Part shown: positions 5,597 to 35,889 of the stretch, in pieces | How the letters are laid out: each line of letters begins with the position of its first letter | Position numbering within the stretch: the first letter of the stretch is position 1 | The notes under the pieces: generated by a model | What the model was told of the DNA's origin: nothing | The model's database searches: none | The model's input: the letters and a program-made list of their open reading frames with translations, nothing else | Assembly: GCA_019637095.1 (NCBI GenBank) | Contig: JAHBWG010000083.1 | Span: 1-40,544 of the forward strand | Source of the DNA: Sandaracinaceae bacterium | GTDB taxonomy: Bacteria; Myxococcota_A; Polyangia; Polyangiales; Sandaracinaceae | Reading direction: 5' to 3' | Length of the DNA: 40,544 nucleotides | Position numbers and translations under genes: made by a program

Positions 5597-6256
5597 ATGA
5601 AGACACGATCGAAGAAGACGCTCGCGCGCCGGGCGCTGTGGGGCCTGGGCGGCGGGCTGGTGGCGGTGGCCACCGGCTTCCAGCTCGTCCGGCTCGGGTA
5701 CGAAGAGCCCGCCTACGAGGTGATCGCCTCCGCCGGACCGCTCGAGGTCCGGCGCTACGCGCCGCGCGTGGTGGCCGAGACGGTGGTCGGCGGGAGCGAG
5801 CGCGACGCGACCCGCGAGGGCTTCCGGCGCCTCGCCGGCTACATCTTCGGCGGCAACGACGGCGGCGCGTCGATCGACATGACCACCCCGGTCGAGCGCG
5901 CGCCGAGCGGGACCTCGATCGACATGACCACTCCGGTCGAGCGCGCGCCGAGCCCCGAGGGCTGGGTCGTCGCGTTCACGATGCCGAGCGACCGCTCGCT
6001 CGCGACCCTGCCGCGCCCGAACGACGCGCGCGTCACGCTGCGCGAGGTCCCCGGGCGCACCGTCGCGGTCCTCTCCTTCCGCGGGCGGGCGGACGCCGCG
6101 ACGAGCCGGCGCGAGACCGCCGCGCTCCTCGAGCACGCGCGCGCGCGCGGCTTCGAGCCCGAGGGCGAGCCGAGCCTCGCGCAGTACGATCCGCCCTGGG
6201 TGCTCGGGCCGCTCCGCCGCAACGAGGTGCACTGCGAGGTGCGGCCCCGGACGTGA
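5597..6256 (+). CDS. SOUL heme-binding family protein with duplicated MTTPV segment
   Basis: A 219-residue SOUL/HEBP-family protein. An N-terminal hydrophobic segment (about 13-32) makes a signal anchor likely, so the domain would lie in the periplasm. Family landmarks: YEVIASAGPLEVRRYAP (about 38-54), GFRRLAGYIFGGN (about 75-87), the MTTPV motif, then the C-terminal YDPPWVLGPLRRNEV. The MTTPV block is present twice, as tandem 15-residue copies, where other members have one. SOUL proteins bind heme or porphyrins; the biochemical role in bacteria is poorly known. A TACAGAT lies 11 nt before the ATG. Confidence 0.9.
   Translation: MKTRSKKTLARRALWGLGGGLVAVATGFQLVRLGYEEPAYEVIASAGPLEVRRYAPRVVAETVVGGSERDATREGFRRLAGYIFGGNDGGASIDMTTPVERAPSGTSIDMTTPVERAPSPEGWVVAFTMPSDRSLATLPRPNDARVTLREVPGRTVAVLSFRGRADAATSRRETAALLEHARARGFEPEGEPSLAQYDPPWVLGPLRRNEVHCEVRPRT
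5870..5953 (+). repeat. Tandem duplication of 45 bp inside the SOUL gene
   Basis: Copy 1 is 5870-5914 and copy 2 starts at 5915. They match over 39 nt with a single C/T difference (silent, in the Thr codon before Pro-Val). Each copy encodes SIDMTTPVERAPS. The very low divergence points to a recent in-frame duplication. Confidence 0.95.
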
Positions 6257-9558: not shown

Positions 9559-9728
9559 CGCCGTACGGTCGCACGGCGGGTCGAGGCGGTCGCGCGGATC
9601 GAGCGCGAGCGGTACACGGGCCAGCAGCGCGTGCCGCCGCTGCGCAGCTCGCGCAGCGAGCGCGTCGCGGATCCGTCAGTCGGGGCACCGAGCGAAGACG
9701 ATCGTGATGCCGTAACGGCGGGTGGGTT

Positions 9729-10066
9729 GCCCTCGCCCCTGCCCTCGCCCTGCGGCGCAACGGGCTCGTCGAACGGCCGACGCCGAGCATGACCTGCTGG
9801 ACCACGAGAAGCTGGATGTCTACCACCGAGCTCGAGCGGCTGGATCGGTGGTCGCCAACCTCGCCGAGCGCGCCGGCGAGCTCCGACCCGAGGAGAAGGC
9901 TCGCTTCTACGGAAGGGCTCGCCGCTCCGCGACCGAGATCGCGGCGTGGCTCGACCTCATCGGCGTTCGTCGCGAGGTCCCCGAGCCGCGGGTCCAGGCG
10001 ACTGCCGAACCGGTGAAGGATCTGGTTCCCAGGCTGGTGAGGGCAAGGGCAAGGGCAAGGGCGCGC
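9729..10066. mobile_element. Inverted GCCCT/GCCC-repeat bounded segment (possible degenerate element)
   Basis: The left end (9729-9754) is built of GCCCTCGCCC-type units. The right end (10037-10066) is built of GGGCAAGGGC units, that is, the same motif inverted. Between them lies the remnant of a four-helix-bundle gene. The segment interrupts the spacer before the recB-like gene. There is no transposase and no visible target duplication, so mobility is only suggested by the layout. The stretch 9559-9728 before it holds nothing I recognise. Confidence 0.35.
9784..10066 (+). pseudogene. Four-helix-bundle (S23-type) protein gene remnant
   Basis: The frame shows two blocks typical of bacterial four-helix-bundle proteins of the 23S intervening-sequence family: DLLDHEKLDVYHRA at the start, then VVANLAERAGELRPEEKARFYGRARRSATE-like sequence (the 'NIAEG...KARFY..ARRSA.E' block) and WLDLIGV. 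About 25-30 residues that normally lie between these blocks (end of helix 1 and the DQLRRA region) are absent, and no normal start codon is present. The frame has no stop before the recB-like gene, so an N-terminal fusion is formally possible, but the arginine/alanine run encoded by the GGGCAA repeats makes a dead remnant more likely. Function of the intact family is unclear. Confidence 0.6.
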
Positions 10067-10144
10067 AAGCTGCCCCGATCGCCGGGGACCGCGCACGAAC
10101 GCGACGGGCGCGCTCGTGCGGCGCCCCGTGGTACTCAGGAGCTG

Positions 10145-13100
10145 GTGGCCCGCGTCGCTCGCCCCGCGATCCTCGAGCGGATCGACCCCGCTCGACACCT
10201 CGTGCTCGAGGCCTCCGCGGGCACCGGCAAGACCTACGTCCTCGAGCACCTCGTCGCCGACCTCGTGCTGCGCGGCGCCGCGCCGCTCGAGCAGATCCTC
10301 GTCGTCACCTTCACCGACAAGGCCACCCGCGAGATGCGCGAGCGCGTGCGGGCTACCCTGCGGCGCGTCCTCGACGAAGGCCCGGAGCCAGCGGCGGGCG
10401 AGGCCCACTGGCTCGTCGACGACGCGGCCCGCGCGCGCGTGAGGGACGCCCTCGCGGTGTTCGATCGCGCGCCGATCTCGACGATCCACTCGTTCTGCCA
10501 GCGCGTGCTGAGCGAGTGCGCCTTCGACTGCGCGCGCCTGCTGCGCCAAGAGCAGGTCGACTCGCGCGACGCGTTCGGGCGCGCGTTCCGCGAGGAGCTG
10601 CGCCGCGCGCTCGCCGCGGACGACCCGCTGCGGCCGGTGATCGAGGGCGCGCTCGACCGCCTCGGCGGCGCCGAGCGCCTCGAGACGATCCTCTACGGTT
10701 GGTCGGTCGAGCGCGGCGCGTGGCGACCCGGCTTCGATCGCGAGCGCGCGCGCGAGGCGCTCGCCGCCATGCCGACGCGGCGCGACCTCGCGCCGGGCGG
10801 GCTCGTCGCGCGCCTGCTCGAGGACGAGCTGTCGCGGCAGCCCAAGAAGACCGTCCCCGAGGCGCTGCGCGAGCTCGCGCCCCTCGTCGACGCGGTGCGC
10901 GCCGACCGCCCGATCCTCGACGCGCTCCTCGACTACTGGGCGTGGGCGGGCGCGCCCCGCACGAGCGGGCACGACAACGCGAGCTACGTGCTCCACTACC
11001 TCGGGCGCTCCCCGCGCCTCGCGCCGCTCGCCGCGCGCGCGCGCGCGCTCGTCGAGGCCGCCGGCTCGCCCTCGAGCGTGCTCGTCGGGGAGCTCCTGCC
11101 GCGCGTCGTCGCGCGCCTGCGGCGCGACAAGGGCGCCCGCGGCCGCTTCGACTTCGACGACATGCTCTCGATGCTCGCGGACGCGCTGCACGGCGAGGGC
11201 GGCGACGCGCTCGTGCGCGAGCTGCGCCGCCGCTACCGCTACGCGCTCGTCGACGAGTTCCAGGACACCGACCCGGTGCAGTGGGACGTCTTCTCCACGC
11301 TCTTCGTCGCGCACGAGGGCGACGAGCGCCTCGTCGTCATCGGCGACCCGAAGCAGGCGATCTACGGCTTCCGCAACGCGGACGTGCACACCTACCTCGC
11401 CGCCAAGCGCGCGCTCGTCGCGCGCGGCGGCGACGTCGTACCGCTCGAGACCTGCTACCGCTCGAGCCCCGCGTTCCTCGACGCGCTCAACCAAGTGCTC
11501 ACGAGGGGCTTCTTCACCGGCGTGAACGAGTACCCGCACCCCGTCCGCGCGGGGCGCACCGCGCGCCGCCTGCTCGACGCGCGCGGCGACGACGCGCCCC
11601 CGATCGCGCTCGTGCACCTCGTCGGCCGCCCGGCCCTGCGCGCCGCCTGGATCTCGCGCGCGCTCGCCGGCTTCGTCGCGCGCGAGATCGGGCGCCTGCT
11701 CGCAGGCGCGCTCTCGGTCGAGCGCGGCGATGGACCGCGCCCGATCCTGCCGAGCGACGTCCACGTCCTCTGCCGCAGCGGCGCGGACGCCGAGGCGGTG
11801 CGCCGCGCGCTCACCGGCGCGCGCATCCCGCACGCGCTCTACAAGCAGGAGGGGCTCTTCGCGACGCCGGCCGCGCGCCACGTGTGGGAGGTGCTGCGCG
11901 CGGTCGAAGATCCGTCGGACCGCGTGCGGCGCCTGCGCGCGTGGCTGACCCCGTTCTTCGCCGTGCCCCTCGCGCGCATCGACGAGTGCCGCGACGTGCC
12001 GAGCGACCATCCCCTGCAAGCCACCTTGCGATCGTGGCGCGCGCTCGCCGACCAACACCGCTTCGCGGATCTCTTCCGCTCGATGCTCACCGAGAGCGGG
12101 CTCGTGCGCCGAGAGCTCTTCGCCGGCCGCAGCGAGCGCGACCTCACCGACACGCAGCACGTCCTCGAGGTCTTGCTCGAAGAGGCGCACCGCGGGCGCC
12201 GTTCGCTCGGCCAGCTCGTCACGCGCCTGGGCGCGTTCATCGCGGGCCGCGAGCTCCCCGCCGGCGAGAGCGGGGACGTGCAGCGCCTCGAGAGCGAGCA
12301 CGACGCGGTGCAGATCCTCACGATGCACAAGTCCAAGGGGCTCGAGGCGGAGGTCGTGTTCCTCGTCGGCGGGCTCGGCGAGCCGTCCCCCGATCGCTTC
12401 GCCCCGCGCGTGGTGCACGAAGCGGACGGGACGCGCCTCGCGTGGCTCGGCGAGCCGCCCGCGCCGCTCGCGGCGCGCGTCGAGGAGGAGCGCCGGCAGG
12501 AGGCCGAGCGCCTCCTCTACGTGGCGATGACCCGCGCCAAGAGCCGCCTGTACGTGCCGTACTTCGGCGCGCCGCCCGCGGACGCGCCGCCCGTCGAGGG
12601 CGCGAGCTACGAGCTCGCCGACGAGCCGCCCCCGCCCGCGCCCGAGCGCCAGCTCGCCTTGGACCTCGAGGATCCGGGCGCCCCCGCCGAGGACCCGCCC
12701 GACTACCGCCTGAAGGCGATGAGCGGCCCGTACCGCGTGCTCAACGAGCGGCTCGGCAGCATGGTGGCCGAGGGCGCGATCACCGCGCCCGGGTTCGAGC
12801 GCACGGTGGTCGAGGTGCGGCCGCCGCGCCGCGCGGGTCGGCCGATCGCGGCCGTGCTCTCGGGCGTGCGCCTCGACGCGGTGCGCGAGCCGGACGAGGA
12901 CGACCTGCGCTTCGCGCGCGCGCGCCGCGAGCGCGCCGGCTTCGACATCACGAGCTACACCCGCATGAAGCGGCAGCGCCGCGAGGCCGGCTACGACGAG
13001 GGCCTCGAGGCGCTCGCGGGCGCGGCGGAGCCCGACGTCGGCGCGCCGCCGTCGCCCGACGAGCTGCCGGGCGGCAGCGCGGTCGGCGTGTTCCTGCACG

Positions 13101-13792
13101 AGGTGCTCGAGCACGCGCGGTTCGAGGGCGCGGCCGAGGCGGCGTGGCTCACCGACCCGGCGCTCGTCGCGCTCGTGACGGCGCGCGCGCGCCACAACGG
13201 CGTCGCGGAGCGGTTCGTGCCGATCGCCGCCGCGCTCGTGCGCGACGCGCTGACGACGCCGCTCGCGCTCCCGGACGGCCGCCGGCTCGAGGGCGGGATG
13301 GCCGCGTTCGAGGCGTGCGCGCGCGAGCTCCCGTTCTTGCTGCCGATCCCGGAGCCGAGCCACCCGCCGCTCGACGCGGGCCGCCCGCGCGCCGACGGCC
13401 CCGCGCTCGCCATCGAGCGCGGCTTCCTGCGCGGCGTGATCGATCTCGTCGGCCGCCACGCCGGCCGCTACTACGTCGTCGACTACAAGTCCGATCGGCT
13501 CGCGAGCTACGCGGCGGACGCGCTCGGCGCACACGTCGAGGCGGAGTACGCCGTGCAGGCGCGGCTCTACACGCTCGGCGCGGTGCGCGCGCTGCGCATC
13601 CACGACGAGGCCGACTACGACGCGCGCTTCGGCGGGCTGCTCTACACGTTCCTGCGCGGCATGCCCGCGGCCGGCGTCTGGAGCGCGCGACCGAGCTGGC
13701 AAGACGTCTTGTCGTGGGAGCGCGCCCTCCACGCCGACGCCCCGTGGGACCACCCGCTCCCGCCGCGGCGCGCGCTGGCCTTCCCGGGATGA
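10145..13792 (+). CDS. RecB-like UvrD/SF1 helicase with C-terminal PD-(D/E)XK nuclease
   Basis: A protein of about 1215 residues for ATP-driven unwinding and degradation of DNA ends in double-strand break repair. Seen: Walker A EASAGTGKT with Lys29; motif Ia VTFTDKAT; SIHSFCQ; Walker B VDEFQDTDPVQW (Asp370, Glu371); GDPKQAIYGFR; TMHKSKGLEAEVV; and LLYVAMTRAKSRLYV. The C-terminal nuclease has GVIDLVG (Asp1100), VDYKSDR (Asp1113, Lys1115) and the YAVQARLY helix. The late LLYTFLRGM segment resembles E. coli RecB rather than AddA. The start is uncertain: GTG at 10145 is the last candidate before the conserved N terminus and has GGAG 5 nt upstream; the frame remains open to 9722. No recC or recD lies nearby. 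Its TGA overlaps the next start by 4 nt. Confidence 0.92.
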   Translation: MARVARPAILERIDPARHLVLEASAGTGKTYVLEHLVADLVLRGAAPLEQILVVTFTDKATREMRERVRATLRRVLDEGPEPAAGEAHWLVDDAARARVRDALAVFDRAPISTIHSFCQRVLSECAFDCARLLRQEQVDSRDAFGRAFREELRRALAADDPLRPVIEGALDRLGGAERLETILYGWSVERGAWRPGFDRERAREALAAMPTRRDLAPGGLVARLLEDELSRQPKKTVPEALRELAPLVDAVRADRPILDALLDYWAWAGAPRTSGHDNASYVLHYLGRSPRLAPLAARARALVEAAGSPSSVLVGELLPRVVARLRRDKGARGRFDFDDMLSMLADALHGEGGDALVRELRRRYRYALVDEFQDTDPVQWDVFSTLFVAHEGDERLVVIGDPKQAIYGFRNADVHTYLAAKRALVARGGDVVPLETCYRSSPAFLDALNQVLTRGFFTGVNEYPHPVRAGRTARRLLDARGDDAPPIALVHLVGRPALRAAWISRALAGFVAREIGRLLAGALSVERGDGPRPILPSDVHVLCRSGADAEAVRRALTGARIPHALYKQEGLFATPAARHVWEVLRAVEDPSDRVRRLRAWLTPFFAVPLARIDECRDVPSDHPLQATLRSWRALADQHRFADLFRSMLTESGLVRRELFAGRSERDLTDTQHVLEVLLEEAHRGRRSLGQLVTRLGAFIAGRELPAGESGDVQRLESEHDAVQILTMHKSKGLEAEVVFLVGGLGEPSPDRFAPRVVHEADGTRLAWLGEPPAPLAARVEEERRQEAERLLYVAMTRAKSRLYVPYFGAPPADAPPVEGASYELADEPPPPAPERQLALDLEDPGAPAEDPPDYRLKAMSGPYRVLNERLGSMVAEGAITAPGFERTVVEVRPPRRAGRPIAAVLSGVRLDAVREPDEDDLRFARARRERAGFDITSYTRMKRQRREAGYDEGLEALAGAAEPDVGAPPSPDELPGGSAVGVFLHEVLEHARFEGAAEAAWLTDPALVALVTARARHNGVAERFVPIAAALVRDALTTPLALPDGRRLEGGMAAFEACARELPFLLPIPEPSHPPLDAGRPRADGPALAIERGFLRGVIDLVGRHAGRYYVVDYKSDRLASYAADALGAHVEAEYAVQARLYTLGAVRALRIHDEADYDARFGGLLYTFLRGMPAAGVWSARPSWQDVLSWERALHADAPWDHPLPPRRALAFPG

Positions 13793-15750
13793 TGAGCGTG
13801 ACGCCGACGCGGTGGGCAGCGCTCTTGGGTGCCGTCGCGCTCGCCTGCGCCGAGCCGGCGTCGCCGCCCACACCCACGGCGCCCCTCGAGGCCCCGCGAA
13901 CACCCGGCCCCGAGCCCGTCGTCGCGGAGCCCGCGCCCGCGGACACACGCCCTGACTGGCTCGAGGCGATCGAGGACGAGGCCGCGTGGGCGCTCCTGCG
14001 CGCGCCGTCGAACGAGCACGCGCTCGCGCGCACCGAGGTCGTGAAGCTCCTCTGGGACCATCGCACCGACCGGCTCTGGTTCTGCCAGTCCGAGCGGTGG
14101 CCCCTCCATTACGACTTCGCGGTGCGGTTCCTCGCGACCGGCGAGCGGCCGCTCGGCGACCGGCGCACGTTCAACCGCCGCCAGTACCTCGGCGCCGAGC
14201 GCGAGATGCAGCTCGCCAGCCTCGTGCGCTACCGCGACGCGGACCGCTTCACGCTCGAGCTCGGTCCCGCCGACGACCTCGACGGCGAAGGCGTCCTGCG
14301 CCTCTTCGAGCGCGTGCGCGCGGCGGTCTTCTTCGGCGACGTCCTCCACTATCGCCCGCGCTCCGAGCTGCATGCGCGCCGGATCCGTCGCGTGCGCGCG
14401 GCCGTCCGCGCGCTCGATCCCAACGAGCTCTGGGCGGGCGCGCGCTACCAGCCGATCACGCTCGGCCAGAGCGTGGGCCGCCTGCGCTTCGTCCGAGGGG
14501 CGCTCGATCCGTCGAGCGTCGTGCCCGATCAGATCTTGGTGCTCGATCACGTGCCGGACGACGTGCCGCTCTGCGCCGGCATCGTCACCGCCGAGCTCCA
14601 AGCGCCGCTCGCGCACGTGGCCGTCCTCAGCCAGTCGCGCGGCACGCCGAACATGGCGCTGCGCGGCGTGTTCGACGGGCCGCTGCGCGCGCTCGACGAG
14701 CGCATCGTCCGCCTGCGCGTCGCCGCCGACGACTTCGCGCTCGAGCCCGCGGACGCGGAGGCGCTGCGCGCGTCGCTCGAGGCGAGCCGTCCTGCGCCCG
14801 TCGAGCCTCCCGCGCTCGACGCGACGCGTGAGGCGCTCGCGGACACGTGCACGCTGCGGCTCGCCGACGCCGCGTGGGCAGGATCGAAAGCGGCGCAGCT
14901 CGGCGAGGTCTGCGCCGCGGGTGTGCCGACGTCCGCCGGGTTCGTCGTGCCGTTGCACCACGCGCTCGCGCACCTGACGCGTCACCGCATCGACGCGTCC
15001 GCCGCCACGCTGCGCGCGAGCCCCGGCTTCGCCGAGGACGGGGCGGCACGCGCTGCCGCGCTCTCGGGCTTGCGCGCGCAGATCGAGAACGCCGAGCTCG
15101 ATCCCGCGCTGCTCGACGCGATCGGCGCGCGCGTCCGGCGGGTGCGCGGGCGCCGCTGGATCTTCCGATCGAGCACGAACGCCGAGGACCTCCCCGGCTT
15201 CAGCGGCGCGGGGCTCTACGAGTCGGTCGTCACGCCCGCCGACCCGAGCCCCGCCCAGATCGCCCGCGCGCTCCGAGAAGTGTGGGCGAGCGTGTGGACC
15301 CGCCGCGCGTGGGACGAGCGCGAGCACTACCGGCTCGATCACGACCGCGTGGCCATGGCGGTGCTCGTCCAGCCGTTCCTCGACCAGGTCGTCGCGATGG
15401 GCGTCGCGATCACCGAGAACCCGTTCTCCAGCGTGCGGAGCGGGATCCTCGTCGACCTCGCGCCGCGCGGCGCGAGCGTCACCGCCGCCGCGGGGGAGGA
15501 GCTGCCCGAGCAGATCCTGTTGTATCGGCACAGCCAGCCCGAGGTGATCTCGCGCAGCACGCAGAGCGGAGGGCGGCCGCTGCTCACCGAGGGCGCGATG
15601 CGGCCGCTGCGCGAGCGGCTCGACCGCGTGCACGCGCACATGATGGCGCTCTGGGGCGAGCGCGCGGACGCCGCCGACGTCGAGCTCGCGCTGCTCGCCG
15701 ACGGCAGCGCCGTGATCCTGCAGGCGCGGCCCTACCGCATGCGCCGCTGA
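13789..15750 (+). CDS. Predicted lipoprotein with glucan water dikinase-like phosphohistidine and ATP-grasp domains
   Basis: A 653-residue protein. An N-terminal signal with lipobox (VALAC, Cys20) is followed by a Pro-rich linker (about 22-47). Residues about 55-230 are unrecognised. At about 250-300 is a swivelling phosphohistidine-type domain with APLAHVAVLSQSRGTP (His276). At about 360-650 is a PPDK/PEP-synthase-type ATP-binding domain with AGSKAAQLGE and RSSTNAEDLPGFSGAGLY. The order His domain then ATP domain, and the RSSxNxEDLxGxSxAGLY wording, match plant alpha-glucan water dikinases rather than PEP synthase; no PEP barrel or starch-binding domain is seen. An ATP-dependent enzyme outside the inner membrane would be odd, so either the lipobox is a false signal or the activity differs. 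ATGATG start; 13789 overlaps the recB stop (ATGA). Confidence 0.75.
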   Translation: MMSVTPTRWAALLGAVALACAEPASPPTPTAPLEAPRTPGPEPVVAEPAPADTRPDWLEAIEDEAAWALLRAPSNEHALARTEVVKLLWDHRTDRLWFCQSERWPLHYDFAVRFLATGERPLGDRRTFNRRQYLGAEREMQLASLVRYRDADRFTLELGPADDLDGEGVLRLFERVRAAVFFGDVLHYRPRSELHARRIRRVRAAVRALDPNELWAGARYQPITLGQSVGRLRFVRGALDPSSVVPDQILVLDHVPDDVPLCAGIVTAELQAPLAHVAVLSQSRGTPNMALRGVFDGPLRALDERIVRLRVAADDFALEPADAEALRASLEASRPAPVEPPALDATREALADTCTLRLADAAWAGSKAAQLGEVCAAGVPTSAGFVVPLHHALAHLTRHRIDASAATLRASPGFAEDGAARAAALSGLRAQIENAELDPALLDAIGARVRRVRGRRWIFRSSTNAEDLPGFSGAGLYESVVTPADPSPAQIARALREVWASVWTRRAWDEREHYRLDHDRVAMAVLVQPFLDQVVAMGVAITENPFSSVRSGILVDLAPRGASVTAAAGEELPEQILLYRHSQPEVISRSTQSGGRPLLTEGAMRPLRERLDRVHAHMMALWGERADAADVELALLADGSAVILQARPYRMRR

Positions 15751-31412: not shown

Positions 31413-33173
31413 ATGTCCGCCAACCTGATCGCCCTGCAGAACCGCTTCCTCGGCCGAGGAGAGACGGTCTACGACCGGCTCGCCCGGCTCGCGGAGGAGA
31501 GGGGCGCGCTCACGGACGAGGATCTCCTCGCGCTCGCGACGGAGCTCGAGCTGCCGCCCGCGCACGTGCGCTCGGTCGCGAAGTTCTACGACGAGCTGCG
31601 GCGCGCCGAGCCTGCGCAGCGTCTCTTGCGGGTGTGCAACGGCGAGGCGTGCGCGGTGCGCGGCGCGGCGGCGTGCCACGACCGGCTCGAGGGCGCGCTC
31701 CGCGCCCGCGAGGGCGTGCGCGTCGAGGAGGTCACGTGCCTCGGCTACTGCGGCTCGGGCCCGAACGCGATGCTCGTCGAGGGCCACGCGCGGCGGCCGT
31801 TCTCGCTCGCCGGCGGCGGGCTCGAGGCGGCGCTCGCCGCGCTGTCCGAGGGCGCGCCGTTCGCGCCCGACGAGCCCGTCAACGCCGTGCACCCGCCGCG
31901 GACCGCGCGAGCGAACGTGCTGCTCTCGCGCTTCGGCGCCGACTTCGCCGGCCTCGCGCACGCCCGCGCCTGCGGCGTCTACGCGTCGCTCGCCCGCGCG
32001 CTCGAGGGCGCGCCCGAGCGCGTGATCGAAGAGGTGAAGGCCAGCAAGCTCCGCGGGCGCGGCGGCGCGGGCTTCCCCGCGGGCCTCAAGCTCGCCACCG
32101 TGCGCGGCGCGCCGAGCGCACGCGGCGACAAGTACGTCGTCGTCAACGCGGACGAGGGCGACGCGGGCGCGTTCATCGACAAGGAGCTGCTCGAGCAGGC
32201 GCCGCACACCGTGCTCGAGGGCACGCTGCTCGCCGCCTACGCGGTCGGCGCGACCGAGGGGTACGTGTACCTGCGCGGCGAGTACCCGCGCGCGATCGCG
32301 ATCTGGAAGCACGCCCTCGCCGAGGCGCGCGCGGCGGGCATCCTGGGCCCCTCCGTGCTCGGGAGCGGCTTCTCGTTCGACGTGAAGCTCGTCGAGGGGC
32401 ACGGCGCGTACATCTGCGGCGAGGAGACCTCGCTCCTGCGCAGCCTCGAGGGCGTCCCCGCGCAGGTCTCGCCCAAGCCGCCCTTCCCCGCGATCGCGGG
32501 CCTGCGCGGCGCGCCGACCGTCGTGAACAACGTCGAGACGCTCGCCGCGCTGCCGTGGATCGTCGAGCACGGCGGCGACGCGTACGCCGCGCTCGGCCGC
32601 GGGGAGAGCCGCGGCACCAAGCTCCTGAGCGTGAGCGGCCACGTGCGCGCGCCGGGCCTCTTCGAGGTCGAGCTCGGCGTCCCGCTGCGCGAGGTGATCT
32701 TCGAGCTCGCGGGCGGCATCCCGGACGAGCGGGCGTTCAAGGCCGCGCAGATCGGCGGCCCGCTCGGCGGCATCCTCGGCCCCGCGGAGCTCGACACGCC
32801 GCTCACGTTCGAGGACCTCGCGCGCGCCGGCGGCATGCTCGGCCACGCGGGCATCGTCGTGTTCGACGAGACGGTGGATCTCGTGCGCATCGGCCGAGGC
32901 CTCGTGAAGTTCTGCGCCGTCGAGTCCTGCGGCAAGTGCTTCCCGTGCCGCATCGGCTCGGTCCGCGCGACCGAGCTCTTCGACAAGATCCTCGACGGCC
33001 GCGGCACGCAGGCGGACCTCGAGGTGCTCGGCGAGCTCAACGAGGCGATGCGCGTCGGCTCGCTCTGCGCGCTCGGCGGCGGCATCCCGATCCCCGTCGA
33101 GAACCTGCTCACCCGCTTCGTGGGCGAGCTCGACAAGTACGTCCCCGGCGCGAGGGCGCCGCGGGTGGTGTGA
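31413..33173 (+). CDS. fdsB: NAD-dependent formate dehydrogenase, fused gamma-beta subunit (FdsG-FdsB)
   Basis: A 586-residue diaphorase subunit. Residues about 1-150 are a NuoE/FdsG-type thioredoxin-fold 2Fe-2S domain with Cys75, Cys80, Cys109 and Cys113. The rest is NuoF/FdsB-like: GRGGAGFPAGLK (NADH site), GEETSLLRSLEG (FMN site) and a 4Fe-4S cluster from ESCGKCFPC (Cys506, 509, 512) plus Cys552. It passes electrons from the catalytic subunit to NAD+. In Fds enzymes of Cupriavidus and Rhodobacter these are two separate proteins; here they are one. The ATG at 31413 has GGGGGAA as a ribosome binding site and a longer leader than most genes here. fdsA follows after 13 nt. Confidence 0.94.
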   Translation: MSANLIALQNRFLGRGETVYDRLARLAEERGALTDEDLLALATELELPPAHVRSVAKFYDELRRAEPAQRLLRVCNGEACAVRGAAACHDRLEGALRAREGVRVEEVTCLGYCGSGPNAMLVEGHARRPFSLAGGGLEAALAALSEGAPFAPDEPVNAVHPPRTARANVLLSRFGADFAGLAHARACGVYASLARALEGAPERVIEEVKASKLRGRGGAGFPAGLKLATVRGAPSARGDKYVVVNADEGDAGAFIDKELLEQAPHTVLEGTLLAAYAVGATEGYVYLRGEYPRAIAIWKHALAEARAAGILGPSVLGSGFSFDVKLVEGHGAYICGEETSLLRSLEGVPAQVSPKPPFPAIAGLRGAPTVVNNVETLAALPWIVEHGGDAYAALGRGESRGTKLLSVSGHVRAPGLFEVELGVPLREVIFELAGGIPDERAFKAAQIGGPLGGILGPAELDTPLTFEDLARAGGMLGHAGIVVFDETVDLVRIGRGLVKFCAVESCGKCFPCRIGSVRATELFDKILDGRGTQADLEVLGELNEAMRVGSLCALGGGIPIPVENLLTRFVGELDKYVPGARAPRVV

Positions 33174-33186
33174 GAGGGCCCCTCTG

Positions 33187-35889
33187 ATGAAGAAGCTCAT
33201 CGTCGATGGCATCGAGGTCGAGGTCGAGGACGGCGCGACGCTGCTCGACGCGGCGCGCGCGGCCGGCGCCTACGTGCCCACGCTCTGCGACAGCGCCGCG
33301 CTCGAGCCCTACGGCGCGTGCCGCATGTGCCTCGTCGAGGTCGACGGCCAGAAGCCGCGCGCCTCGTGCCACACGCCGGCCGAGGCGGGCATGCGCGTGT
33401 CGACGAGCTCGGAGCGGCTCGACCGCGTGCGCAAGACGATCGTCGAGATGGTCGTGAGCGACCACCCGCTCGACTGCCTCGGCTGCGCCGCCAACAACCG
33501 CTGCGAGCTCCAGAGCGTCGCCGCGAAGGTCGGGTTCCGCGAGGTGCGCTACGAGCCGGTGGCGACGCACTCACCGCCGCGCGACTTCTCGCACCCGTTC
33601 CTCAAGCTCGACATGGACAAGTGCATCGCGTGCGCGCGCTGCGTGCGCGTCTGCGACGAGCTGCAGGGCTCGTTCATCCTCGGCATGGCCGGGCGCGGCT
33701 TCGAGATGAAGGTCATCGCCGGCAACGACACCGGCTTCGAGGAGGCGGACTGCCGCAGCTGCGGCGCCTGCGCGATCGAGTGCCCGGTCGGCGCGATCAT
33801 GGACCGCGCGGTCGTCGAGGACGGGCTGCCCGACGAGATCGTCAACACGACGTGCGCGTACTGCGGCGTCGGCTGCTCGCTCGACGTCCACGTCAAGGGC
33901 GCGCGCGTCACGATGATCCAGCCGAGCCCGAAGGGCTCCGCCAACCGCGGCCACGCGTGCGTGAAGGGCCGCTTCGCGCACGAGTACGCGGGCGCGAAGG
34001 ACCGCCTGAGCGCGCCGCTCATCCGCAACGACGACGGCACCTTCCGCGAGGCGAGCTGGGACGAGGCGCTCGACCTCGTGGCCCGCCGGCTCGGCGAGAT
34101 CCGCAGCGCCCACGGGCCGGGCGCGTTCGCCGCCATCTCGAGCTCGCGCTGCACGAACGAGGAGAACTACCTCGCGCAGAAGTTCACGCGCGTCGTGATG
34201 GGCACCAACAGCATCGACAACTGCTCGCGCGTCTGCCACAGCCCGAGCGCGTTCGGCCTCCAGAAGTCGCTCGGCACCGGCGCGGGCACCAACAGCTTCG
34301 AGGACATCGAGCACACGAAGTGTGTCCTCCTGGTCGGCGCCAACCCGACGGAAGCGCACCCGGTCTACGGCGCGCGCATCAAGCAAGCGGTGTTGCGCGG
34401 TGCCAAGCTCATCGTGCTCGACCCGCGCACGACCGAGCTCGCCAAGCTCGCGGACCTGCACCTCACGCTCGACCCCGGCAGCAACGTCGCCGTCGTCAAC
34501 GCGATGCAGCACGTCGTCGTGAAGGAGGGCCTCCTCGACGAGGCGTTCATCGCCGCGCACACCGAGGGCTGGGACGAGTACCGCGCGAGCCTCGACGCGT
34601 TCACGCCCGAGTGGGCCGAGTCGATCTCGCGCGTCCCCGCCGACCTCATCCGCGCCGCCGCGCGGATGTACGCGACGTCGGGCACCGCGCTCATCCTCTG
34701 GGGCCTCGGCGTCACCGAGGCCGCGCACGGCACCAACACCGTCTTCGGCCTCATCGACCTCGCCCTGATGACCGGGAACATGGGGCGCCTGGGCACCGGC
34801 ACCAACCCGATCCGCGGCCAGAACAACGTCCAGGGCGCCTCCGACGTCGGCGCGCTCCCCAACGTCTTCTCCGACTACCGCCCGGTCGGCGACCCCATCG
34901 CGCGCGAAGAGCACCGCGCGATCTGGGGCGTCGAGCCGCCGAGCGACAAGGGCCTCACCATCCCCGACATGTTCGACGCCGCGCACGAGGGCCGCCTCAA
35001 GGCGATGTGGATCACCGCCGAGGACGTCGCGCAGTCGGATCCGAACACCGAGCACGTCGTCGGCGCGCTCGAGCGGCTCGACTTCCTCGTCGTGCAGGAG
35101 ATCTTCATGAGCGAGACGGCCAAGCTCGCGCACGTCGTCTTGCCGGGGGCCTCTTTCCTCGAGAAGGACGGCACGTTCGTCAACAGCGACCGCCGCATCC
35201 AGCGCGTGCGCCGCGCGATCCCCGTCCGAGGCGGCGCCAAGCGCGACCTCGACATCTACCCGCTCGTCGCCGAGCGCATGGGCGTGGACCTCGGCTTCGG
35301 CAGCCCGCCCGACCCCGCGAAGGTGATGGACGAGATCGCCGCGCTCTCGCCGCTCTGGCGCGGCGTCTCCTACGCGCGGCTCGAAGGCGACGGCGCGTTC
35401 CTCCAGTGGCCGTGCCGGAGCGCCGACGACCCCGGCACCGCGATCGTCCACGAGGGTGGCGCGTTCCTGTCCGGCAAGGCCCGCTTCCGCGCCGTCCCGT
35501 GGCAGGAGCCCGGCGAGACGCCCGACGACGAGTTCCCGCTCTACCTCACCACCGGCCGCCAGCTCTTCCACTACAACGTCGGCACCCAGACCCGCCGCAC
35601 CAAGGTCATGGAGCTCGACCGCGCGCAGGGCGAGCGCGTCCGCATCCACCCCAAGGACGCGCGCCGCCTCGCGATCGCCGACGGAGAGCGCGTCCGCGTC
35701 GTCTCGCGCCGCGGCCACGTCGACGTCGAGGCGCAGGTCACCCGCGCCACCAAGCCCGGCACCGTCTTCATGACGTTCCACTTCCCCGAGACGCGCACCA
35801 ACCTCCTGCTCAGCAGCGCGGCCGACGAGCACACCCAGTGCCCCGAGTACAAGGTCTCCGCCGTCCGCCTCGAGAAGATGGCGAGCTGA
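33187..35889 (+). CDS. fdsA: NAD-dependent formate dehydrogenase, catalytic alpha subunit (FdsA-like)
   Basis: A 900-residue molybdenum/tungsten bis-MGD enzyme that oxidises formate to CO2. Seen in order: N-terminal 2Fe-2S (Cys34, 45, 48, 61); a His-ligated 4Fe-4S (His93, Cys97, Cys100, Cys106); two 4Fe-4S ferredoxin motifs (CIACARCVRVC and CRSCGACAIECP); CAYCGVGC at about 228-235; and the pterin domains. The metal ligand is Cys350, followed by His351, in SRVCHSPS, so it is the Cys rather than selenocysteine type. The C-terminal MopB-type beta-barrel starts near 780 (LYLTTGRQLFHYNVG). No Tat signal, so the complex is cytosolic. Chaperones FdsC/FdhD and FdsD are not in the window. Confidence 0.96.
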   Translation: MKKLIVDGIEVEVEDGATLLDAARAAGAYVPTLCDSAALEPYGACRMCLVEVDGQKPRASCHTPAEAGMRVSTSSERLDRVRKTIVEMVVSDHPLDCLGCAANNRCELQSVAAKVGFREVRYEPVATHSPPRDFSHPFLKLDMDKCIACARCVRVCDELQGSFILGMAGRGFEMKVIAGNDTGFEEADCRSCGACAIECPVGAIMDRAVVEDGLPDEIVNTTCAYCGVGCSLDVHVKGARVTMIQPSPKGSANRGHACVKGRFAHEYAGAKDRLSAPLIRNDDGTFREASWDEALDLVARRLGEIRSAHGPGAFAAISSSRCTNEENYLAQKFTRVVMGTNSIDNCSRVCHSPSAFGLQKSLGTGAGTNSFEDIEHTKCVLLVGANPTEAHPVYGARIKQAVLRGAKLIVLDPRTTELAKLADLHLTLDPGSNVAVVNAMQHVVVKEGLLDEAFIAAHTEGWDEYRASLDAFTPEWAESISRVPADLIRAAARMYATSGTALILWGLGVTEAAHGTNTVFGLIDLALMTGNMGRLGTGTNPIRGQNNVQGASDVGALPNVFSDYRPVGDPIAREEHRAIWGVEPPSDKGLTIPDMFDAAHEGRLKAMWITAEDVAQSDPNTEHVVGALERLDFLVVQEIFMSETAKLAHVVLPGASFLEKDGTFVNSDRRIQRVRRAIPVRGGAKRDLDIYPLVAERMGVDLGFGSPPDPAKVMDEIAALSPLWRGVSYARLEGDGAFLQWPCRSADDPGTAIVHEGGAFLSGKARFRAVPWQEPGETPDDEFPLYLTTGRQLFHYNVGTQTRRTKVMELDRAQGERVRIHPKDARRLAIADGERVRVVSRRGHVDVEAQVTRATKPGTVFMTFHFPETRTNLLLSSAADEHTQCPEYKVSAVRLEKMAS

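Follow-up and report, generated by a model that had tools for sequence, protein, structure and literature searches.

The window, a stretch of 40,544 nucleotides from a Sandaracinaceae genome, carries at positions 13789-15750 of the forward strand a complete gene whose 653-residue product we read, with a probability of about 0.6, as a cell-envelope lipoprotein that would act outside the cytoplasm as a three-domain ATP:acceptor phosphotransferase of the dikinase type. The gene was delineated as an open reading frame and has relatives of 61-66% identity in other genomes. The elements on which this reading is built, namely an export signal, a complete ATP site, a swivel histidine and a conserved N-terminal domain, are all taken from sequence or structure prediction. 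As in other members of the PPDK/PEPS/RPH/GWD dikinase superfamily, the protein combines a PPDK_N ATP-grasp domain having the ATP-site Lys, Arg, Glu and Gln with a swivel domain having the catalytic His. By current understanding, phosphohistidine dikinases work in compartments rich in ATP, and a widespread, lipid-anchored branch that keeps the catalytic set intact allows a direct test of how phosphorylation could proceed, and be supplied with ATP, beyond the bacterial cytoplasm.

The predicted protein begins with a lipoprotein signal peptide that is kept across the family (residues 1-20, 13789-13848), reading MMSVTPTRWAALLGAVALAC|AEP and ending in a lipobox-like ALAC at the putative lipid-anchor Cys20. 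A Pro/Ala-rich tether, predicted to be disordered (residues 21-48, 13849-13932; pLDDT <50), leads to a conserved N-terminal domain (residues 49-215, 13933-14433), which is followed by a phosphohistidine swivel domain (residues 216-322, 14434-14754) and by an ATP-grasp domain (residues 346-653, 14824-15747), all on the forward strand. Pfam recognizes a single domain in the whole protein, PPDK_N (PF01326), at 364-649 with an E-value of 2.7e-25. The AlphaFold model has a pLDDT of 90 and a pTM of 0.86 (its numbering plus 24 gives that of the protein), and when its domains were compared with solved structures by VIA-align, the swivel domain matched RPH-Lm (5fbu) with a Z of 11.4 and PTS enzyme I with a Z of 11.1, while the ATP-grasp domain matched RPH-Lm with a Z of 28.0 (2.3 Å over 290 residues) and PEP synthase with a Z of 26.4. 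The order of a His domain followed by an ATP-grasp domain, as proposed in the first-pass annotation, is therefore real, and His276, the predicted phosphate carrier that it named, is indeed encoded by CAC at 14614-14616. The whole module can be aligned in 112 sequences, far beyond chance.

Across these sequences, H276, K367, R460, E466 and D467 are invariant (112/112), as is the Q-x-P-x-x-H context of His276, and D630, E632, Q645 and R647 are invariant in all 108 sequences that reach them; residues 460-477 read RSSTNAEDLPGFSGAGLY. RPH-Lm requires its Lys22 and Arg117 for activity or resistance (PMC4844700), and we take K367 and R460 to be their equivalents. Loss of ATP-binding residues in the family had been named beforehand as grounds for refuting the first reading; instead, none of the presumed ATP-site residues varies among the 108-112 relatives covering them. 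With His276 and eight such residues kept, the alignments make a loss of ATP binding unlikely. As all presumed catalytic residues are kept across relatives, the protein may phosphorylate something outside the cytoplasm.

The roughly 180 residues ahead of the His domain, which the first-pass annotation left unrecognized and suspected of holding a further domain, do contain a real conserved one, supported by alignments A1 and A2, by residue counts and by the model. Predicted alone from 71 sequences, this domain (about residues 49-215) reaches a pLDDT of 95.3, and K86, D90, H107, F128, Y133, R138 and D162 are near-invariant in it. Comparison with the solved structures of the PDB gave no match above noise (best E of 0.56 by Foldseek; best Z of 4.3 by VIA-align, to PPK1), which does not prove the fold to be new. 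Kinship with PPK1 was considered and set aside, as a Z of 4.3 is below noise, and no homology is claimed. The motif of the domain is still visible in signal-less Streptomyces members and so is not tied to export. The other known dikinases bind the acceptor through a third domain, which makes this N-terminal domain the natural candidate for the acceptor site, a role suggested here by its conservation.

In the mechanism that we propose, the ATP-grasp domain would bind Mg-ATP, and His276 would swing in to be phosphorylated, a step that sets AMP and Pi free in PEP synthase, RPH and GWD and would do so here. Phosphate would next travel on the swivel domain to an acceptor docked on the N-terminal domain, whose near-invariant K86, D90, H107, R138 and D162 are the leading candidates for the second site; the acceptor might be a surface glycan, a lipid, a peptide or a neighbouring lipoprotein. 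Secretory kinases of the CotH and Fam20 types also phosphorylate targets outside the cytoplasm, and the window protein would act alike, although their fold and chemistry are unrelated to it. An argument against an exported dikinase is the scarcity of ATP beyond the cytoplasm, where no system that would donate it was found; the ATP would have to be drawn from the periplasm, from lysed cells, from prey or from vesicles. This same scarcity favors the strongest of the alternatives, which is nonetheless improbable: an exported protein that binds, senses or scavenges ATP or another nucleotide and has lost phosphate transfer to an acceptor. Such a role accounts for export without any phosphate acceptor and is in line with neighbours in other branches that are lipoproteins, possibly binding ones, but the retention of His276, its Q-x-P-x-x-H context and a full ATP site is hard to explain unless the histidine is phosphorylated.

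When the proposed dikinase is set beside known enzymes, its ATP-grasp domain is nearest to those of PEP synthase and RPH, in sequence as well as in the model. RPH-Lm (5hv1/5fbs) shares with the window protein the ATP-grasp fold, the swivel His domain and the equivalents of Lys22 and Arg117, but it is arranged as ATP-grasp, rifampin domain and C-terminal His, whereas in the window protein the His comes before the ATP-grasp; RPH-Lm also acts on rifampin, and no counterpart of the N-terminal domain was found in RPH. PEP synthase and PPDK (2ols, 1kbl) are similar in the sequence, fold and internal segment order of the ATP-grasp domain and would have the phosphohistidine chemistry in common, but they run from ATP-grasp through His to a PEP/pyruvate barrel, while the window protein ends at the ATP-grasp, lacks the barrel and is predicted to be exported. 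The NCBIfam models for PEP synthase and rifampin phosphotransferase match only the ATP-grasp part and far below their cut-offs (for NF041857, rifampin phosphotransferase, 64 bits against a cut-off of 999 on the window protein). Plant GWD and PWD do place the His domain before the ATP-grasp, as the window protein does, and relatives of the latter give weak matches to the GWD swivel family; the window protein, however, is much shorter, is predicted to be exported and shows no starch-binding domain by Pfam at E-values up to 10, in so far as Pfam models such a domain. A GAGLY-type motif is presumably common to the window protein and plant GWD.

The earlier statement that the module matches plant GWD rather than PEP synthase is thus right only in part: the domain order and the swivel domain tend in that direction, but the ATP-grasp domain resembles PEP synthase and RPH. 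At E-values up to 10, the swivel family of GWD (PF22973, GWD1_pHisD) matched 7 of 27 family members (best E 0.0023) and 17 of 50 (best 9.9e-5, A3), whereas PF00391, the swivel family of PPDK/PPS, matched none of the 27 and 4 of the 50 (best 0.02). When 282 genomes were searched with PF22973 at E <= 0.01, 23 places came up (best E 2.0e-5), and most of those that could be compared fall on the dikinase-lipoprotein family, although in none of the genomes did a match exceed the curated cut-off (best 26 bits against 27), and the window protein itself gave no match. That the protein is a genuine bacterial GWD, a water dikinase for surface or storage glucans that acts on an alpha-glucan or an exopolysaccharide at the cell surface, is accordingly favored by the His-then-ATP-grasp order and by the fact that, among Pfam families, GWD1_pHisD matches the swivel domain best, yet we consider it quite unlikely. 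The PF22973 scores of the genome search all fall short of the cut-off, the ATP-grasp domain is of the PPS/RPH kind, a carbohydrate-binding domain was not found in the protein, and signal-less relatives that have an ATP-grasp protein and an MFS transporter as neighbours are more suggestive of small-molecule biosynthesis. In addition, an approximate sequence of the potato GWD C-terminus matched the family profile in two pieces of swapped order, a lead by which the ATP-grasp segments of plant GWD may run in the opposite order to those of the family. The protein looks like a dikinase and would act like one, but we do not file it as a GWD. The family nonetheless offers a compact relative for the study of His-then-ATP-grasp enzymes such as GWD, for which there is no solved structure (PMC12892837).

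The predicted export of this dikinase is carried by the signal. In the window protein, it shows the features of a bacterial lipoprotein, with a basic R8, a hydrophobic stretch at 9-19 and the lipobox C20, and all untruncated order-level relatives start with a hydrophobic, lipobox-ended signal; the sole order-level relative without one (L028) is cut off at a contig end, while another near a contig end (L013) retains the end of the signal. In the wider set, a strict rule (start codon, basic residue, hydrophobic stretch and lipobox; home-made, rather than SignalP) picks out 89 of the 106 relatives that are not truncated, as opposed to 1 of 106 when applied to a control segment of equal span inside the module, such that the lipoprotein signal noted at first is borne out across the family. 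Among the relatives failing this rule, most have, on visual inspection, a signal of the lipoprotein or Sec type: L030, L062, L080, L095 and L104 appear lipoprotein-like, and Sec-type signals are found in those Bacteroidota and some Fibrobacterota relatives that miss the lipobox rule. Some relatives carry domains of secreted proteins ahead of the module, namely LTD (3.3e-17) and a weak CarboxypepD_reg-like domain; in L093 and L108, extra domains lie between the lipoprotein signal and the dikinase module, in L108 being LTD (lamin-tail) by Pfam. The pair Cys354 and Cys375 is present in 14 of the 24 members of the window's clade; over all rows, both are present in 14, the first alone in none and the second alone in 3, and the pair is found in none of the 3 signal-less rows tested. 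This co-occurrence fits what is expected of a disulfide, with a weight limited by the kinship of the rows. In Myxococcus xanthus, Lys at +2 marks inner-membrane lipoproteins and Ala at +7 those of the extracellular matrix (PMC3222651). As the window protein has Ala at +2 and Pro at +7, and thus neither mark, the default guess under these rules would be the outer membrane.

Homologues starting downstream of the signal, which the first-pass annotation would have counted against it, do exist, but only among distant relatives, namely Streptomyces L132, L159 and L160, L094 and possibly L131, while all untruncated order-level relatives bear the signal. In the wider set, the clear exceptions are L041 and L094 (Solirubrobacteraceae), and another Actinomycetota relative (L145) is a lipoprotein. 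As signal-less and signal-bearing relatives both exist, the alignments indicate that the module is older than its export or that export was gained or lost more than once. A misread start is unlikely, and a cytoplasmic phosphotransferase with a misleading N terminus, despite the signal-less full-module relatives in Actinomycetota and the ATP present in the cytoplasm, is very improbable, given that signal and lipobox are conserved while the adjoining tether diverges freely and that Bacteroidota relatives instead carry a Sec-type signal and secreted-type domains.

Turning to the gene neighbourhoods, the dikinase gene of the window lies between a recB-like gene upstream, whose stop its start ATG overlaps (ATGA, 13789-13792), and an M3 peptidase gene downstream; neither neighbour was found beside the 61-66% identical relatives in the DNA compared. 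A joint operon function with recB was set aside, as the overlap exists but recB is not beside these relatives. No RNA families were found in the window, and no promoters or terminators around the gene. Within the other major branch, which is not the clade of the window, the gene is repeatedly found next to those of three exported protein families: a lipoprotein rich in cysteine and lacking any Pfam match (cluster 1; 36 of 80 loci, on the same strand in 30 and within 350 bp in 22), an SMP-30-like protein (19 loci) and a DUF1554-like protein (16 loci). Some further neighbour clusters look like antisense shadows of these three. The cluster 1 lipoprotein, which shows Cys-rich motifs and a conserved HG (L044, L055, L069, L082, L101, L106, L112 and others), is a possible partner or substrate of the dikinase.

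The dikinase-lipoprotein family is large and spans Myxococcota, Bacteroidota, Fibrobacterota, Planctomycetota and Actinomycetota, although taxon labels taken from metagenome-bin records may be misassigned. An alignment scan of genome contigs gave at least 568 confirmed stretches and at least 80 loci in Myxococcota, Bacteroidota, Fibrobacterota, Planctomycetota and one Actinomycetota MAG, unlike a single-sequence scan of the contigs, which gave no match. A protein search of 96 relatives gave a match in 55, some to the ATP-grasp part alone, and an alignment search of the phylum gave some match in 135 of 188 genomes, ordinary ATP-grasp homologues included. In the source genome (9.25 Mb, 197 contigs) there are two paralogues, L002 and L003, at about 46% identity, which fall on separate branches of a quick tree with long branches. 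PPDK_N is found in six of its proteins, three of them outside the family, with a readable start for two of these three; both of these canonical PPDK_N proteins begin directly at the ATP-grasp domain and have no signal. Our literature searches found no paper on the family. With somewhat less than even confidence, we suggest that it is a large, uncharacterized group of ATP-dependent dikinases acting outside the cytoplasm, perhaps the first members of the PPDK/PEP-synthase superfamily to be described there, which would phosphorylate a cell-surface acceptor via phosphohistidine and a new acceptor domain and would, in many lineages, be paired with the cysteine-rich lipoprotein as a possible substrate or partner. 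A phage or defence origin was considered and dropped, with no match in phages, PHROGs or PADLOC.

Several further observations were made. On Streptomyces plasmids, a cassette (L159:4535-9215, L160:4376-9203) encodes an ATP-grasp protein, a signal-less three-domain relative of the dikinase, annotated only as 'PEP/pyruvate-binding domain-containing protein', and an MFS transporter. The position of this form between the other two suggests small-molecule work in the cytoplasm, and the whole looks like an unexplored biosynthetic cassette. In the window itself, the RecB-like helicase/nuclease ORF (9722-13792, +) has a weak match to the 23S rRNA-intervening-sequence family (a four-helix bundle) at residues 38-84, ahead in the same frame, and may be a fusion or a run-on frame. 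A SOUL haem-binding protein (5.1e-44) is encoded at 5597-6256 (+), and at 31413-35889 (+) a NuoE/NuoF fusion-like ORF (thioredoxin-like 2Fe-2S and 51K FMN domains) is followed by a NuoG-like molybdopterin-type subunit.
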